Of a DNA stretch of 38,522 nucleotides, positions 31,997 through 38,522 are shown piece after piece (position 1 is the first letter of the stretch; every line of letters begins with the position of its first letter). The position numbers and the translations under genes are program-made. Below the pieces are notes generated by a model that did not search any database, had not been told where the DNA came from, and saw only the letters and a program-made list of their open reading frames with translations. Source of the DNA: an archaeon BMS3Bbin15 (GTDB lineage Archaea; Hydrothermarchaeota; Hydrothermarchaeia; Hydrothermarchaeales; BMS3B); NCBI GenBank assembly GCA_002897955.1, contig BDTY01000089.1, forward strand, positions 1 through 38,522. The letters run 5' to 3'.

Positions 31997-33232
31997 ATGA
32001 GAGTAATAGGGTTAAAATGTAGAAACTGTGGTAAAGAATATAAGACCCTTCCAATTAATATATGTGAAGAATGTTTCGGACCTCTTGAAGTTAGATACGA
32101 TTATGAGGAAATAAAAGAGAATATATCAAAAAAGAAAATACAAAAAGCAGAGCCCACACTGTGGCGCTATAGAGATTTTCTGCCTGTTGAAGACCAGAAC
32201 AAAATTGTAGACCTCAAGGCTGGCTTCACGCCACTGCATAAGGCTGACAACCTTGCTGAAGTTCTCGGTCTCAAGGAGCTTTATCTGAAAAATGACAGTG
32301 TAAACACAACCTTCTCCTTCAAGGACAGAGTGGTTTCTGTGGCAATAAGCAAGGCAATAGAGTTCGGTTTTGATACTGTTGCCTGCGCTTCTACAGGAAA
32401 TCTGGCAAACAGTGTTGCTGCTCATGCTGCCAAAGCAAAACTCAACTGCTACATATTTATTCCGAAAAACCTCAGCAGAGGGAAAATTATACCTACTCTG
32501 GCCTATGACCCAAATCTAATAGCTGTTGATGGTAATTACGATGATGTCAACAGGCTTTGCACAGAGATATCCAGCTATTATGACTGGGCTTTTGTAAATA
32601 TAAATCTAAGACCTTACTATAGCGAAGGTTCAAAAACTCTCGGTTTTGAAGTTGTCGAACAGTTGGGCTGGGAGGTTCCAGAGCGCTATATTGCACCTGT
32701 CGGGTCAGGTTCACTGCTTACAAAAATCCACAAGGGACTTAAAGAGTTGGAAATAACAGGATTTATCGATGAGGTTAATACAAAGGTAACTGCTGCCCAG
32801 AGTGAGGGATGTTCACCTGTTACAACTTCCTTCAGGACGGGAGAGGCTATAAAACCTGTCAAGCCAAACACAATAGAACAGAGCCTTGCAATAGGCAATC
32901 CTGCTGACGGTTTCTATGCAGTCAAACTTATTAAGGAAACAGGAGGTACAGCAGGCACCGCAAATGACGATGAGATTATAGAAGGTATAAAGCTTCTTGC
33001 AAAGACCGAGGGTATATTCACAGAAACTGCCGGCGGTGTTGTAATAGGCACTCTGAAAAACCTTGTAGAAGCTGGAGAAATAGATAAAGATGAGAAGATA
33101 GTAGTATATATTACAGGAAATGGTTTGAAGACCCAGGATGTTCTTGTTAACAGGCTCAAAGAGCCCCGGGTAATTTCACCTGACCTGGATGAATTCAACA
33201 AACTTCTGAAAAAGGAGGCTGTTATATGGTAA
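31997..33232 (+). CDS. thrC: Threonine synthase-like PLP enzyme
   Basis: The 411-residue fold-type II PLP enzyme is of the archaeal threonine synthase group. An N-terminal zinc-ribbon-like segment has Cys8, Cys11, Cys23 and Cys26. The PLP lysine is Lys109 in SFKDRVVS. Phosphate-binding and substrate loops are seen in ACASTGNLANSVAAHAAKA and PVGSGSLLTKI. The standard reaction is O-phosphohomoserine to threonine. The next gene, a CysO-like sulfur carrier, overlaps its end by seven bases, so a sulfhydrylase-type reaction on a phosphorylated amino acid is a possible alternative (inference). Confidence 0.88.
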   Translation: MRVIGLKCRNCGKEYKTLPINICEECFGPLEVRYDYEEIKENISKKKIQKAEPTLWRYRDFLPVEDQNKIVDLKAGFTPLHKADNLAEVLGLKELYLKNDSVNTTFSFKDRVVSVAISKAIEFGFDTVACASTGNLANSVAAHAAKAKLNCYIFIPKNLSRGKIIPTLAYDPNLIAVDGNYDDVNRLCTEISSYYDWAFVNINLRPYYSEGSKTLGFEVVEQLGWEVPERYIAPVGSGSLLTKIHKGLKELEITGFIDEVNTKVTAAQSEGCSPVTTSFRTGEAIKPVKPNTIEQSLAIGNPADGFYAVKLIKETGGTAGTANDDEIIEGIKLLAKTEGIFTETAGGVVIGTLKNLVEAGEIDKDEKIVVYITGNGLKTQDVLVNRLKEPRVISPDLDEFNKLLKKEAVIW

Positions 33233-33495
33233 TTGTTAGGCTTGCCACACCCCTGAGGAAATTCTCGGGAGGTAAACCCGAGATAAAAGTAGAAGGAAGT
33301 ACAGTAAGAGAGGTTATTGAGAATATAGAGGCGAGAAGTCCAGGTTTTGCCGATAAAATTCTGGATGATAATGACATAAAGCAATTTATAAATATTTTCC
33401 ATAACAATGAGGATATACGGTTCCAAAAGGCTATTGATACAGAGATTAAACCTGATGATGTGCTATCAATTCTTCCAGCAGTATCTGGAGGTTAA
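33226..33495 (+). CDS. CysO/MoaD-like ubiquitin-fold sulfur carrier
   Basis: The 89-residue beta-grasp protein ends ILPAVSGG. The C-terminal Gly-Gly is the site of adenylation and thiocarboxylation by E1-like enzymes. The central FINIFHNNEDIRF and the ending resemble the mycobacterial cysteine-synthesis carrier CysO (recalled pattern RFVNIYVNDEDVRF...ILPAVAGG) more than canonical MoaD or ThiS. GGAGG at 33214-33218, inside thrC, lies 7 nt before the ATG. The E1 partner is two genes downstream. It is likely a sulfur donor for cysteine, homocysteine or tRNA-bound cysteine synthesis. A molybdopterin role or protein modification (SAMP-type) is the alternative. Confidence 0.85.
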   Translation: MVIVRLATPLRKFSGGKPEIKVEGSTVREVIENIEARSPGFADKILDDNDIKQFINIFHNNEDIRFQKAIDTEIKPDDVLSILPAVSGG

Positions 33496-33498
33496 ACT

Positions 33499-33957
33499 TT
33501 GATTATCTATACACCCTATAAAATTGAACGTTTTACCTGTCTGTATAAAGAATGCGGAGCAAAGTGCTGTACTCCCGGTAGGGTTATAACCCACAGAGAA
33601 AAGGAAAAGATTTCAGAAGCTACAGGACTTAAACCGGAGGAGTTTATTGAAAGAGAGGCAGAAAGAGGATTGTTCAGATTGAAAGGTAAGAATAATATGT
33701 GCATCTTTCTGAAAGAGGATTTTTCCTGTTCACTCCATAACATAGATGCAAAACCTCTATCCTGTCAGATGTATCCTTTCCTATTCGAGGGAATTATTTA
33801 TTCCGATGAGATTGTTCTGAAAGTGAGAGCTGCCGATGAATGCCCGGGTGTAGGTGTCGGTGAAGAGGTTGATGAAGATTTCGAGCTTAAAATTGAAGCT
33901 CTTGGAAATAAGTTTGTGAGTGAAATTAAGGCTGGCCTCAAGGAGGAGGAAAAGTGA
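33499..33957 (+). CDS. YkgJ-type Cys-rich (Zn/Fe cluster) protein
   Basis: The 152-residue protein belongs by motif to the YkgJ/CxxCxxCC family. FTCLYKECGAKCC near the N terminus and CIFL...FSCSLHNIDAKPLSCQMYPF in the middle supply up to eight cysteines for a metal or Fe-S cluster. The start is TTG at 33499, exactly 7 nt after GGAGG (33487-33491). It lies between the carrier and its E1, and its end overlaps the E1 GTG start. The function of this family is poorly known; a role in cluster or sulfur handling is an inference from context. Confidence 0.75.
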   Translation: MIIYTPYKIERFTCLYKECGAKCCTPGRVITHREKEKISEATGLKPEEFIEREAERGLFRLKGKNNMCIFLKEDFSCSLHNIDAKPLSCQMYPFLFEGIIYSDEIVLKVRAADECPGVGVGEEVDEDFELKIEALGNKFVSEIKAGLKEEEK

Positions 33958-34742
33958 ATTTAAATGAGATTAAGCGCTATTCCAGGCAGCTAATTCTTCA
34001 GGATTTCGGAACAAAGGAGCAGGCAAAACTCAAAAGAGCAAAGGTAGCTGTTACAGGTGCAGGCGGTCTTGGCTCGCCAATCTCAACCTATCTGACTCTT
34101 GCAGGTGTGGGAGAGCTTCATATTTTTGATATGGATAATATTGAGCTGAGCAACTTAAACCGCCAGTTTCTATATACCCCTGAAGACGATGGAAAACCAA
34201 AAACAGAGATTGCAGCAAAGAGACTTCAGGAGATTAACCCCGAAATTAAAGTTGAGGGGATAAATGAAAAGATAACCTACGATAATGCATTTGATATCCT
34301 CAAGGGCTATGATGCCATAGTGGATGGCACAGACAATTTTGCTGTGCGTTATGCAGTAAACGATTCAGCGGCGGTCAATAAAATTCCACTTTTCCATGGT
34401 GCTGCTCTGATGTATGAAGGCAGAGTTATGAGTATTATTCCCAAAGATACTGCCTGTTTCAGATGCATTTTTCCGGAAGCTCCTCCTCAGGGCACAATAC
34501 CTACATGCAGGGAGGCGGGAATCCTTGGAAGTGTCACAGGCATAGTCGGTTCAATTCAGGCTACTGAAGCAATAAGATACCTGGCAGGTCTGGAGATAGG
34601 GCTGAAAAATAAACTTCTTATTATAAATACGGACATAATGAGCTTCGATGTGGTAAATCTAAGGAGGAGAGAAAACTGCACAGCCTGCGGTGAAAAATTT
34701 ATTCCAAAGCCAGTTGAAGATGTATGCGGGGTAAATCCATGA
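33954..34742 (+). CDS. E1-like activating enzyme (ThiF/MoeB/HesA family)
   Basis: The 262-residue enzyme adenylates the C-terminal glycine of ubiquitin-fold sulfur carriers. It has the ATP-binding VTGAGGLGSPIS, the NLNRQFLY arginine finger segment, the Asp in DGTDNFAVR, a zinc site made of Cys168/Cys171 and Cys242/Cys245, and the candidate catalytic Cys185 in IPTCREAGI. There is no C-terminal rhodanese domain, so persulfide sulfur must come from another protein, plausibly the TusA-like product of the next gene. It starts with GTG overlapping the ykgJ-like stop, and its own stop overlaps the tusA-like ATG. Confidence 0.93.
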   Translation: MNLNEIKRYSRQLILQDFGTKEQAKLKRAKVAVTGAGGLGSPISTYLTLAGVGELHIFDMDNIELSNLNRQFLYTPEDDGKPKTEIAAKRLQEINPEIKVEGINEKITYDNAFDILKGYDAIVDGTDNFAVRYAVNDSAAVNKIPLFHGAALMYEGRVMSIIPKDTACFRCIFPEAPPQGTIPTCREAGILGSVTGIVGSIQATEAIRYLAGLEIGLKNKLLIINTDIMSFDVVNLRRRENCTACGEKFIPKPVEDVCGVNP

Positions 34743-34990
34743 GTGACTACGAAACACTTGACCTGAAGGGTGAGCACTGCCCCGATACCTTTGTATATAC
34801 AAAGATTAAGGCTGAAGAAATCGGATATTCTGGCGGGGGAAAGCTCAAGGTCATAGTGGATTATTCACCTGCTGTGGAGAGCATACCCAGGAGTCTTGCC
34901 CAGGAAAACAAGGGTTACAGTGTAACAGAGGTTAAAAAAGCCGGAAATAACATCTATGAGATTTATATAGATATACCTCCACTGGAGTAA
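34739..34990 (+). CDS. TusA-like sulfur carrier
   Basis: The 83-residue protein has the TusA/SirA/YedF two-layer fold pattern: LDLKGEHCPDTFVYTKIKAE with the single persulfide-carrying Cys14, then LKVIVDYSPAVESIPRSLAQ and a final beta strand YEIYIDI. The classic CPxP motif is CPDT here. TusA proteins pass persulfide between sulfurtransferases. The ATG overlaps the E1 stop (ATGA), linking the two translationally. An in-frame ATG 15 bases upstream is less likely. Confidence 0.85.
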   Translation: MSDYETLDLKGEHCPDTFVYTKIKAEEIGYSGGGKLKVIVDYSPAVESIPRSLAQENKGYSVTEVKKAGNNIYEIYIDIPPLE

Positions 34991-34998
34991 TAATTTTT

Positions 34999-35901
34999 AT
35001 GAAGTCAATAAGAGAATATTTCGGAAGCAGATACAGTCTTGTCGGGGTTAAGATTTATGAAGAGGTGCCGCAGGATTACCCCCGTCCTGAGAGAAGTGGC
35101 AGATACTGTGAGTTTGTGAAGAGGGCTGCTCTCGGTGAAACTCTGCTTATGCTTGAGGAAGATGAAGAATGCCCTGAATCGCTTATAGCACTTGGCTTTC
35201 AGGAACCCAGCTTTATTGACCTTCAGCCCCGCCTCCAGCCCGCAAAAACACAGGCGGTACTTATTGCTCCACTCGAAAAGATATCTGAGCCTGATGTTGT
35301 GCTCATGATACTGAACCCCAGACAGGCAATGGAAATAGCTGCCCTTGTCGATGGTCTTGAAGCACAGTTTAAAGGTGGAATGGCCGTATGCGGTGAGGTA
35401 ACGGCACTTCCAATAAAAGAAAACAGAGTAAATCTGAGTTTTCTCTGCGGTGGCGCGAGAATGTTCGCAGATTATAAAGATAGCGAGGTAATTCTCGGAG
35501 CAAATATGAAGTTCTTCCAGGAGCTCGAAGCAAGAGTTAAGGCTCTGCAGAAGAGCTGTGGAGCCCTGTGTGGCTGCAGAACAAGCGACCTCCCGCAGAG
35601 AATGGTGAATGCTCTTGAAAACCTTGGCTTTGAAAAAGGGATAGATTACTTCTTTGGAAGAATAAACGGCAAGAGTGTGAGAATCTATCTTAATAAAGAT
35701 AATAAGGGTAAGGTAAACTATATTACAATCCACATACCTGTAAGAGGTGAGGTTAAAGTTGAGAAGCCACTTGAGGTAAAAACACGTGGCCCATGGAATG
35801 ATGTATTTGCAACCCTCAGGGATGGTGAGGGTATAGATTTGAATACAGGAAAGGGTATCAGGGAAATAATTGAAGATTTTGTGGCGAAGGTGAAAAGTTG
35901 A
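34999..35901 (+). CDS. DUF169 protein with Cys-rich motif
   Basis: The 300-residue protein matches the DUF169 family over about residues 1-195 (GSRYSLVGVKIYEEVPQDYP, FVKRAALGETLLMLEEDEEC). A CGALCGCRTSDLP motif near residues 188-200 with three cysteines could hold a cluster or persulfide. A further C-terminal domain of about 100 residues is unrecognised. The family function is unknown. Its position directly before SepCysS, with overlapping stop and start codons (TTGA), suggests it acts with that enzyme or delivers sulfur to it. Confidence 0.75.
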   Translation: MKSIREYFGSRYSLVGVKIYEEVPQDYPRPERSGRYCEFVKRAALGETLLMLEEDEECPESLIALGFQEPSFIDLQPRLQPAKTQAVLIAPLEKISEPDVVLMILNPRQAMEIAALVDGLEAQFKGGMAVCGEVTALPIKENRVNLSFLCGGARMFADYKDSEVILGANMKFFQELEARVKALQKSCGALCGCRTSDLPQRMVNALENLGFEKGIDYFFGRINGKSVRIYLNKDNKGKVNYITIHIPVRGEVKVEKPLEVKTRGPWNDVFATLRDGEGIDLNTGKGIREIIEDFVAKVKS

Positions 35902-37073
35902 AGTTTATAAACAAATATAAAGAACATATAATTATAAACCCGCTGATGAGAGGAGGTATCGTACCGGAAGATGTTCAGGCACAGCTGTGCCAGGAAGGCT
36001 GGCTCGAAGTAGGATACTCTCTATGTCACGACTGCCTTGAGGGAAGGAGCAGTCTCGTTTCAAAGCCTCCTGTTAAAAGTTTTCTTGGAAATGTAGCTGA
36101 ATTTTTTGGCGGAGACGAGGCAGAACACACCTTTGGCTGTAGAGGTGCCCAGTTTGCAGTGATGAAGACAGTGGGTGATTATTGCAAAGAGGAAGACTTG
36201 GAACCTGTTATTGTCGTTGACCCCAATTCCCACTATTCCACGAATATAGCTGCCGAAATGGCGGGATTGAGGGTTGTAGAGCCTCCTCATACAGGCTACC
36301 CCGAATATAAAGTTACTGCCGAAGCCTTTGAGGATAAGATTGAGGAGGTTGGCAGACCAGCTCTTGTGGCAGTTACACATGCAGATCCATACTTCGGCAA
36401 TATAGCTCCTGTTGAAGAGATAGGAAAGATATGCGAGGAAAGGGACATACCATATATGGTTAATGCTGCCTACACAGCAGGTGTTGCTCCTGTGAATCTC
36501 AAAAAAATGAAGGCTCAGTTTCTTACTGTGAGTGCACATAAGTCCATGTCTTCCCTTGCCCCTCTCGGCTATGTTGTAACAACCTATGAATGGAGCAAGA
36601 AAATATTTGCCACTTCAAAATCAAAAGCTGAATGGACAGGCAGGATTTTTGGAAAGAAACTTCCAAACCTGTTTGGCTGCAGTATAGGCGGAGTGCCGGT
36701 TATAAGCTCAATGCTCAGTTTCGATTATGTGAAGGAAAGGGTTAAGCACTGGGATGAAGAACTCAGCAAGATTAACAGTTTTGTTGACAGGCTTGAGGAG
36801 ATTGGAGATGGCGATATAATGCTTCTTGGTGAGCGACCGAAGAGACATCACCTGCTTCATTTTGAAACACCTGTTTTCTGGGATATTTCACAGAAACACA
36901 AGCGTAGAGGTTTTTTCCTTGCTGAACACATGATTAAAAGGAAAATTGTCGGCCTGCACAAAGGGTTGAGCAAACATATTAAGCTAAGCGTTTATGGTTT
37001 AACTCAGGAAGAAATCGACAGGGTTCTCGAAGCTTTCAGAGAGGCTGTAAAATTAAGAGAGAAGCTCAATTAA
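35898..37073 (+). CDS. pscS: Sep-tRNA:Cys-tRNA synthase (SepCysS)
   Basis: The 391-residue PLP enzyme converts O-phosphoseryl-tRNA(Cys), made by SepRS, to Cys-tRNA(Cys). The N-terminal INPLMRGGIVPEDVQ, Cys43/Cys46 (SLCHDC) and Cys261 (LFGCSIGG) correspond to the conserved cysteines proposed to hold a persulfide or Fe-S cluster. The PLP lysine is Lys215 in VSAHKSMSS. It starts with TTG overlapping the DUF169 stop, with AAGGTGA a few bases upstream. SepRS and SepCysE are not in the window. Placement at the end of a sulfur-carrier operon is the notable feature. Confidence 0.95.
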   Translation: MKFINKYKEHIIINPLMRGGIVPEDVQAQLCQEGWLEVGYSLCHDCLEGRSSLVSKPPVKSFLGNVAEFFGGDEAEHTFGCRGAQFAVMKTVGDYCKEEDLEPVIVVDPNSHYSTNIAAEMAGLRVVEPPHTGYPEYKVTAEAFEDKIEEVGRPALVAVTHADPYFGNIAPVEEIGKICEERDIPYMVNAAYTAGVAPVNLKKMKAQFLTVSAHKSMSSLAPLGYVVTTYEWSKKIFATSKSKAEWTGRIFGKKLPNLFGCSIGGVPVISSMLSFDYVKERVKHWDEELSKINSFVDRLEEIGDGDIMLLGERPKRHHLLHFETPVFWDISQKHKRRGFFLAEHMIKRKIVGLHKGLSKHIKLSVYGLTQEEIDRVLEAFREAVKLREKLN

Positions 37074-37670: not shown

Positions 37671-38522
37671 ATGATGAAAAGTTATAAGTTCAGGCTGGAG
37701 CCAAACAAAGAGCAGCGAGTTACATTAAAAGCAACTCTGGATACATGCAGACATTTGTATAATAACGCTCTTGCCAGTAGAAAACTACAGGCAGAACTGT
37801 ATAGACTGCCTATGACAAAGCAGTGGATTACAGTAGAAAATCAGATTAAGGCTTTACCATTGCAGAAAGAAACGAATGAATATTTACCTCTGGTTCACAG
37901 TCAGGTATTACAAGATGTCTTGAGAAGAGTTAATAAGAGTTTTAAGAATTTCTTCAGACACCTTAAAAACCATGAAAAGCCTGGATATCCACGCTTTAAA
38001 AGCTATAATAGATATAACAGTTTCACCTATCCACAGACAGGATTTAAAATTGTGGGTAAGAAATTAGAGTTATCACATATTGGTAAGGTAAATATTAAGA
38101 TTCATAGAAGCCTGACAGGAAAGATTAAAACCTGCACAATAAAGAGAGACATAGATATATGGTATGCAAGCTTCTCTGTTGAAACAGAAGATTCCTTAGC
38201 AGAAAAAACAGTAATAAAATCAGCAGTGGGTATAAATCCTCTGGTTGCATTGAGTAACGGAGAACAGAAAAAACCTCCAAAATTCTTATTGCAATCAGAA
38301 CACAAGCTGGCTAAAGAGCAGCGAAAACTATCACGGAAACAGAAGGGGTCACACAACAGAGACAAACAGAGAGTTATTGTAGCAAAGGTTCACAGACGAA
38401 TTAGACAGCAAAGAATGGATTTCCATCATAAACTTAGCAGGGAGCTTGTGGAGAAATACGATTTTATTGCCTTTGAAGATTTGAAGATAAAAAACATGCT
38501 TAGAAATCATCATTTAGCTAAA
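37671..38522 (+). CDS. tnpB: TnpB (IS200/IS605 OrfB), 5' 284 codons, altered RuvC-I
   Basis: The open frame starts at ATG 37671 (or 37674) and continues past the window end. The N-terminal helix-turn-helix/OrfB start (KSYKFRLEPNKEQRVTLKAT), the QVLQDVLRRVNKSFKNFF helix and KPGYPRFK are typical. The RuvC-I motif, normally VGIDLG plus about ten residues before the LSNGE turn, reads VGINPLVALSNGE. The catalytic Asp is Asn189 and about four residues are missing. The RuvC-II Glu (Glu269 in AFEDLKIKNM) is kept. The protein is therefore probably nuclease-dead, either a decaying copy or a TldR-like guide-RNA-dependent binder. The RuvC-III part is outside the window. Confidence 0.88.
   Translation, partial: MMKSYKFRLEPNKEQRVTLKATLDTCRHLYNNALASRKLQAELYRLPMTKQWITVENQIKALPLQKETNEYLPLVHSQVLQDVLRRVNKSFKNFFRHLKNHEKPGYPRFKSYNRYNSFTYPQTGFKIVGKKLELSHIGKVNIKIHRSLTGKIKTCTIKRDIDIWYASFSVETEDSLAEKTVIKSAVGINPLVALSNGEQKKPPKFLLQSEHKLAKEQRKLSRKQKGSHNRDKQRVIVAKVHRRIRQQRMDFHHKLSRELVEKYDFIAFEDLKIKNMLRNHHLAK

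Follow-up and report, generated by a model that had tools for sequence, protein, structure and literature searches.

Which molecule donates sulfur to SepCysS (O-phosphoseryl-tRNA:Cys-tRNA synthase) in vivo is, to our knowledge, still open, and the question is raised directly by an operon of the archaeon BMS3Bbin15 (Hydrothermarchaeota). The operon lies in a 38,522-nucleotide stretch of DNA (contig BDTY01000089.1 of assembly GCA_002897955.1, positions 1 to 38,522 of the forward strand) that is referred to here, as a whole, as the window. Seven open reading frames on the + strand fill positions 31997-37073. The last encodes SepCysS, and the six before it encode, in order, a divergent threonine-synthase-family enzyme (ThrC-F), a CysO/SAMP1-like sulfur carrier, a YkgJ-type protein, a ThiF/MoeB/UbaA-like E1, a TusA and a long form of DUF169 (DUF169-L). 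A preliminary description of the window had read these genes as a sulfur relay for tRNA-dependent cysteine synthesis. A functional association with that process is well supported, because the neighborhood is not unique to this genome and because the carrier and E1, at the loci examined, sit with SepCysS, ThrC-F or homocysteine genes. We favor, with a probability of roughly 0.55, a protein-borne sulfur relay that has two outputs, SepCysS and ThrC-F, and in which DUF169-L would act as the partner of SepCysS.

SepCysS and its operon in the Hydrothermarchaeota

The operon is compact, with successive junctions of -7, +3, -4, -4, +8 and -4 bases that include the start/stop overlaps GTGA, ATGA and TTGA, in agreement with the overlaps or gaps of at most eight bases first described. 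Its proteins were assigned to families with Pfam and NCBIfam profiles, and the genome itself was searched family by family. All seven families bear out the names given to them earlier, except that the "thrC-like" gene belongs to a separate subfamily, which stands beside a canonical ThrC.

SepCysS (35898-37073, 391 amino acids) scores 382.8 bits with PRK09331 (cut-off 301) and 348.8 bits with TIGR02539, which is below the equivalog cut-off of 365.25. It aligns over its full length with the M. jannaschii enzyme (3wkr), and was also aligned to the solved structure 2e7i. Cys43, Cys46 and Cys261 (codons 36024-36026, 36033-36035 and 36678-36680) and Lys215 (36540-36542), the lysine for pyridoxal phosphate (PLP), are kept in all 74 of the aligned SepCysS sequences. 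The genome also encodes SepRS (positions 24848-26386 of contig C96, 686.9 bits), and since SepRS is present, a SepCysS that works without it on some other reaction is ruled out. Of the records matched, that of the SZUA-158 bin comes closest, its SepCysS sharing 99% identity with that of the window.

The same seven genes stand in the same order in three relatives, and a fourth (L075) differs only by one extra reading frame between DUF169 and SepCysS. Because it is conserved in these four, the gene order does not appear to be a matter of chance. A fifth relative (L063) has the operon genes without ykgJ, the locus of a member of the same genus (L049) reaches its contig end after tusA, and the operon is found in other families of the order as well. 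In one Pyrohabitans-type relative (L172), cut by a contig end, E1-TusA-DUF169 can be seen. The possibility that the operon is unique to this genome is ruled out by these relatives and by others beyond the order, where the neighborhood recurs in part.

Linkage of the sulfur-carrier genes to SepCysS across archaea

The SepCysS alignment was scanned against one genome per species, giving 79 loci. In 30 of them an E1 gene is found no more than 9 kb from SepCysS, against about 0.8 expected from about 1.15 E1 genes per 1.3 Mb, with the per-genome rate an estimate. This Poisson expectation is only a guide, as some absences are false, being caused by contig ends, and related species do not count as independent. 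DUF169 is found near SepCysS at 27 of the 79 loci, and is mostly directly adjacent. Both links are scattered over several deep clades of the SepCysS tree, with a minimum of 13 state changes for E1 and 10 for DUF169.

The arrangement of the genes varies. DUF169 precedes SepCysS in the Hydrothermarchaeota and Bathyarchaeota and follows it in the Archaeoglobi, where ThrC-carrier-E1-TusA lies a few kb from SepCysS-DUF169 in one case (L125) and ThrC-carrier-E1 is on the opposite strand in another (L132). A bacterial metagenome-assembled genome (L114) has carrier-E1-DUF169-SepCysS-TusA-ThrC, and in L115 SepCysS is followed by carrier-E1-TusA and ThrC. Hadarchaeum has SepCysS-E1-TusA, and in the Methanomethylicota E1 is divergent from SepCysS. 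The order in the Hadesarchaea is DUF39-NIL/ferredoxin-COG2122-(carrier)-E1-SepCysS, in which Pfam and NCBIfam confirm the labels DUF39 (HcyBio), NIL/ferredoxin, JAB and carrier-E1 fusion, and the COG2122 label denotes PRK04334-type matches slightly below their cut-offs. An association of carrier and E1 with molybdopterin or thiamine genes, raised in the preliminary description as a point that would count against the relay, is not what is seen: MoaE, MoeA and Thi genes are absent beside them in the window operon, and the recurrent neighbors across loci are SepCysS, DUF169, ThrC-F, TusA, DUF39, COG2122-type and JAMM genes, joined at a few loci by ThiI-like genes.

The carrier (33226-33495, 89 amino acids; PF02597) combines a beta-grasp family profile with a free C-terminal Gly-Gly (33487-33492), and its C-terminus, ILPAVSGG, is conserved among relatives. 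Its nearest solved structures are 4n6e (71.3 bits), which we take to be an actinobacterial CysO although the PDB entry is itself named "ThiS/MoaD family protein", and 3dwg (55.5 bits). As its nearest structures are these CysO proteins, the earlier label "CysO-like" holds. The E1 (33954-34742, 262 amino acids) matches the ThiF profile (PF00899, 274.5 bits) and, as had been stated, has no rhodanese domain.

TusA (34739-34990, 83 amino acids; PF01206, 49.6 bits, cut-off 28.6) has the motif CPDT, and its catalytic Cys14 is encoded at 34778-34780. Those TusA proteins whose genes adjoin E1 read CPxT in the Hydrothermarchaeota, Hadesarchaea, Mnemosynella and two other groups, the exceptions being the two Archaeoglobi loci just mentioned (CPVP in L132; motif not found in L125), and most other TusA proteins compared read CPxP. 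A CPxT-type TusA travels with E1.

DUF169-L (34999-35901, 300 amino acids; PF02596, 107.6 bits, cut-off 27) consists of the DUF169 core and a C-terminal extension, and it is this long form that adjoins SepCysS. Its CGALCGC motif is present as described, but just the last two cysteines, Cys191 and Cys193 (35569-35577), are invariant. The extension opens with this invariant CGC and is absent from the short DUF169 linked to SepRS, whereas Cys37, Cys58, Cys131 and Cys150 of the core are common to the short SepRS-adjacent DUF169 of genome G050. DUF169-L goes with SepCysS rather than with ThrC-F in the Bathyarchaeota and Archaeoglobi, and it tracks SepCysS even where there is no E1. No sequence relative of DUF169 was found in the PDB. 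The AlphaFold model has a predicted local distance difference test score of 88.6 and a predicted template-modeling score of 0.62, with its lowest confidence at the CGC loop (residues 187-194). In a fold search the C-terminal domain weakly resembled type III secretion chaperones (best E-value 1.7e-3), a likeness that hints at a protein-binding role but should be taken as no more than a lead. DUF169 is not the known protein MA1715, since the latter is COG2122. At three Bathyarchaeota loci (L101, L103 and L104), a gene that by eye is nadA-like comes next after DUF169-SepCysS, with no E1 nearby; the nadA product is quinolinate synthase, an Fe-S enzyme.

The YkgJ-type gene (33499-33957, TTG start), for a CxxCxxCC protein of 152 amino acids (PF03692, 30.0 bits), separates the carrier gene from the E1 gene in the operons of the Hydrothermarchaeota, and stands in a different order in L094. 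Just 3' of the window operon, at 37671-38522, an incomplete gene at the contig end looks by eye like an IS200/IS605 TnpB-type gene. In three of the Pyrohabitans-type relatives (L169, from 8953; L172, 2112-4145; L173, from 3048), the place of SepCysS directly 3' of DUF169 is taken by a gene for a 676-residue oxidoreductase with FAD (flavin adenine dinucleotide) and multiple [4Fe-4S] clusters, an enzyme that could reduce persulfides.

A proposed sulfur relay and its alternatives

In the reading that we favor, the operon would be a unit that assimilates sulfur for cysteine in protein-borne form. The CysO-like carrier would be adenylated at its C-terminal glycine by E1 which, having no rhodanese domain, would receive sulfur from the persulfide of its dedicated CPxT-type TusA, so that the carrier thiocarboxylate is formed. 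The resulting sulfur pool would have two outputs. The first would be ThrC-F, making free cysteine or homocysteine by beta- or gamma-replacement, and the second SepCysS, which needs a persulfide on its Cys43/Cys46/Cys261 set for the conversion of Sep-tRNA(Cys) to Cys-tRNA(Cys). DUF169-L would be dedicated to SepCysS, most likely as the last persulfide donor or as its loader. The gene set, the overlaps at its junctions, the recurrent linkages, the conserved catalytic residues and the presence of SepRS are established; which way the sulfur flows, what ThrC-F acts on and what DUF169-L does are inferred. More tentative, and on balance doubtful, is the further proposal that the carrier thiocarboxylate is itself the sulfur of the Sep-tRNA to Cys-tRNA conversion, delivered via DUF169-L or by attack on dehydroalanyl-tRNA with JAMM release where a JAMM peptidase is present, and that in many archaea other than methanogens SepCysS draws its sulfur physiologically from this source.

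Several points weigh against the relay. The 79 loci were those that best matched a query based on the Hydrothermarchaeota, and their linkage counts are not phylogenetically independent, since they include related species. The genome of the window has a single E1 and four ThiS-fold carriers, so this E1 is not dedicated to SepCysS and must serve all four; it also has CysRS. Within the order, six Pyrohabitans-type relatives keep the six-gene module intact with SepCysS elsewhere, and a seventh (G006) has SepCysS and SepRS and is missing E1, DUF169 and ThrC-F. Many other SepCysS genomes (among them G030, G033, G043, G052, G055 and G057) have no E1 at the threshold used, and because of such genomes the relay is not obligatory: SepCysS can work without it, perhaps with free sulfide. 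Together with ThrC-F, a probable competing client, these facts speak against an exclusive tie to tRNA-dependent cysteine synthesis.

The best-placed alternative gives ThrC-F all of the sulfur. Carrier, E1 and TusA would serve this enzyme alone, in the manner of CysM-CysO-MoeZ or of Wolinella HcyS-MetY, and yield free cysteine or homocysteine. SepCysS would use free sulfide, and would lie downstream for no other reason than that cysteine supply is the task of both pathways. ThrC-F (31997-33232, 411 amino acids; PF00291, TIGR00260) and its relatives fall into a group of their own when aligned with the canonical ThrC proteins of the same genomes, one of which is encoded in the genome of the window away from the operon. 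The group has the fixed motifs NxTFSFKDR, NINLRPYY.EGSKT and GNGLKTQ. Numbered by alignment with the threonine synthase of T. thermophilus, in which Thr88, Ser155 and Arg160 are ligands of the O-phosphohomoserine phosphate, it has Leu for Thr88 and NINLRPYY for NSxNPxR in the Ser155/Arg160 region, whereas the canonical paralogues keep these residues. ThrC-F has lost most of the residues that bind the substrate phosphate, and an ordinary threonine synthase is ruled out by this loss together with the canonical paralogue. The carrier gene lies directly 3' of ThrC-F in the Hydrothermarchaeota, Archaeoglobi and Mnemosynella, and in genome G024 (locus L199), which has no SepCysS or SepRS match above cut-offs, ThrC-F stands directly beside a carrier-E1 fusion. 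Because of this last case, ThrC-F probably draws on the carrier independently of SepCysS, as a sulfhydrylase-like client that uses the thiocarboxylate. The G024 protein, annotated as a threonine synthase, is probably instead a stand-alone cysteine or homocysteine synthase dependent on the thiocarboxylate. The Pyrohabitans-type module, with no SepCysS beside it, fits such a division too. A service to ThrC-F alone does not, however, account for the Hadesarchaea and Methanomethylicota, where E1 (with the carrier in most Hadesarchaea) adjoins SepCysS and only canonical ThrC scores (280-390 bits or less, against more than 600 for ThrC-F). Since it persists in these genomes without ThrC-F, the link between E1 and SepCysS is independent of that enzyme. 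Nor does a service to ThrC-F alone account for L114 and L115, in which the order is shuffled and SepCysS is still in the cluster, or for the preference of DUF169-L for SepCysS. We therefore consider it possible, but rather unlikely.

A general role for E1 is less probable still. As a UbaA-like activator for tRNA thiolation, molybdopterin synthesis and SAMP conjugation, it would merely be located in a cysteine operon with which it shares a demand for sulfur, and the presence of mostly one E1 per genome, the four carriers noted above and the closeness of the operon carrier to SAMP1 would all be natural. Recurrence at SepCysS across several phyla, together with a matched CPxT-TusA, would not be expected of a general activator, however, and neither would a carrier-fused E1 beside SepCysS. 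It is most unlikely that the operon is a metabolic grouping with no sulfur transfer among its members, since although its thrC-family, E1 and SepCysS genes all belong to amino-acid or sulfur metabolism, what recurs in different orders is a set of specific subfamilies (ThrC-F, CPxT-TusA and DUF169-L) and not generic paralogues.

The fusions are seen at eight Hadesarchaea loci (L118, L119, L122, L142, L146, L149, L155 and L163), with the Gly-Gly of the carrier directly before the E1 start. A JAMM/JAB gene is present at all eight, against 4 of 22 loci with an unfused E1 (Fisher p 8e-5, relatedness ignored), which suggests that the peptidase frees the carrier from the fusion. Processing of ubiquitin-like fusions by a peptidase has been predicted (PMC1779556), and ubiquitin-like protein-E1 fusions have been noted for the Thaumarchaeota (PMC2948915). 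Single operons of the Hadesarchaea also unite DUF39, NIL/ferredoxin, COG2122-type, carrier, E1 and SepCysS genes, with the carrier seen in L146, L147 and L148 and fused to E1 in L149, L155 and L163, as if one sulfur pool fed homocysteine and Cys-tRNA.

Significance and relation to known systems

The loci name candidates, drawn from several phyla, for the sulfur source of SepCysS: E1, the CysO-like carrier, CPxT-TusA and the long DUF169. They also provide a first context for DUF169 proteins of the long form, and likewise for an enzyme that resembles threonine synthase and probably carries the wrong annotation. The relay, if true, joins ubiquitin-like sulfur carriers, tRNA-dependent cysteine synthesis and the DUF39/COG2122 homocysteine pathway, and were the carrier thiocarboxylate to feed SepCysS, a ubiquitin-like carrier would have a direct part in aminoacyl-tRNA synthesis.

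No earlier report of a carrier/E1/TusA/SepCysS operon was found in the open literature, nor any that links SepCysS with TusA or a sulfur donor, or tRNA-dependent cysteine with MoaD; the subscription literature was outside the search. A survey of 2010 gave no new strong links for the archaeal E1 (PMC2948915). Already known are the bacterial ThiS/MoaD-E1-SirA-sulfhydrylase operons (PMC1779556) and the occasional position of DUF169 beside SepRS (PMC8762117).

As in the known SepRS/SepCysS pathway (PMC5424206, PMC8762117), SepCysS here has all of its catalytic cysteines and SepRS is encoded elsewhere in the genome. The main text of those papers names no carrier, E1 or TusA beside SepCysS, only "a few sulfur metabolism genes" (PMC5424206), which may include some of them. 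A role of COG2122 in persulfide formation on SepCysS has been proposed (PMC5764234), and the genes of the DUF39/NIL-ferredoxin/COG2122 homocysteine pathway of that paper share an operon with E1 and SepCysS in the Hadesarchaea. Unlike in that pathway, family searches found no DUF39 in the genome of the window or in nearly all of its order. This absence would fit a ThrC-F that replaces DUF39 in homocysteine synthesis, whereas the presence of both in four genomes (G078-G081) would not.

The bacterial ThiS/MoaD-E1-JAB-SirA operons (PMC1779556, table rows 4c and 4e) and the Wolinella HcyS/HcyF/MetY system likewise combine a carrier, an E1, SirA/TusA and a PLP sulfhydrylase or cysteine synthase. Both include sulfate-reduction genes, unlike the window operon, and SepCysS and DUF169 are not listed in the passages that describe them. 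The mycobacterial CysO-CysM-Mec+/MoeZ system shares with the window a CysO-like carrier, its activation by an E1 and a PLP synthase beside the carrier, and its likeness extends to the JAB/JAMM genes beside E1 in the Hadesarchaea. It differs in that the PLP enzyme of the window belongs to the threonine synthase branch and not to CysM, that the E1 lacks a rhodanese domain and has TusA instead, and that the window operon, which has no JAMM gene, contains SepCysS and DUF169-L.

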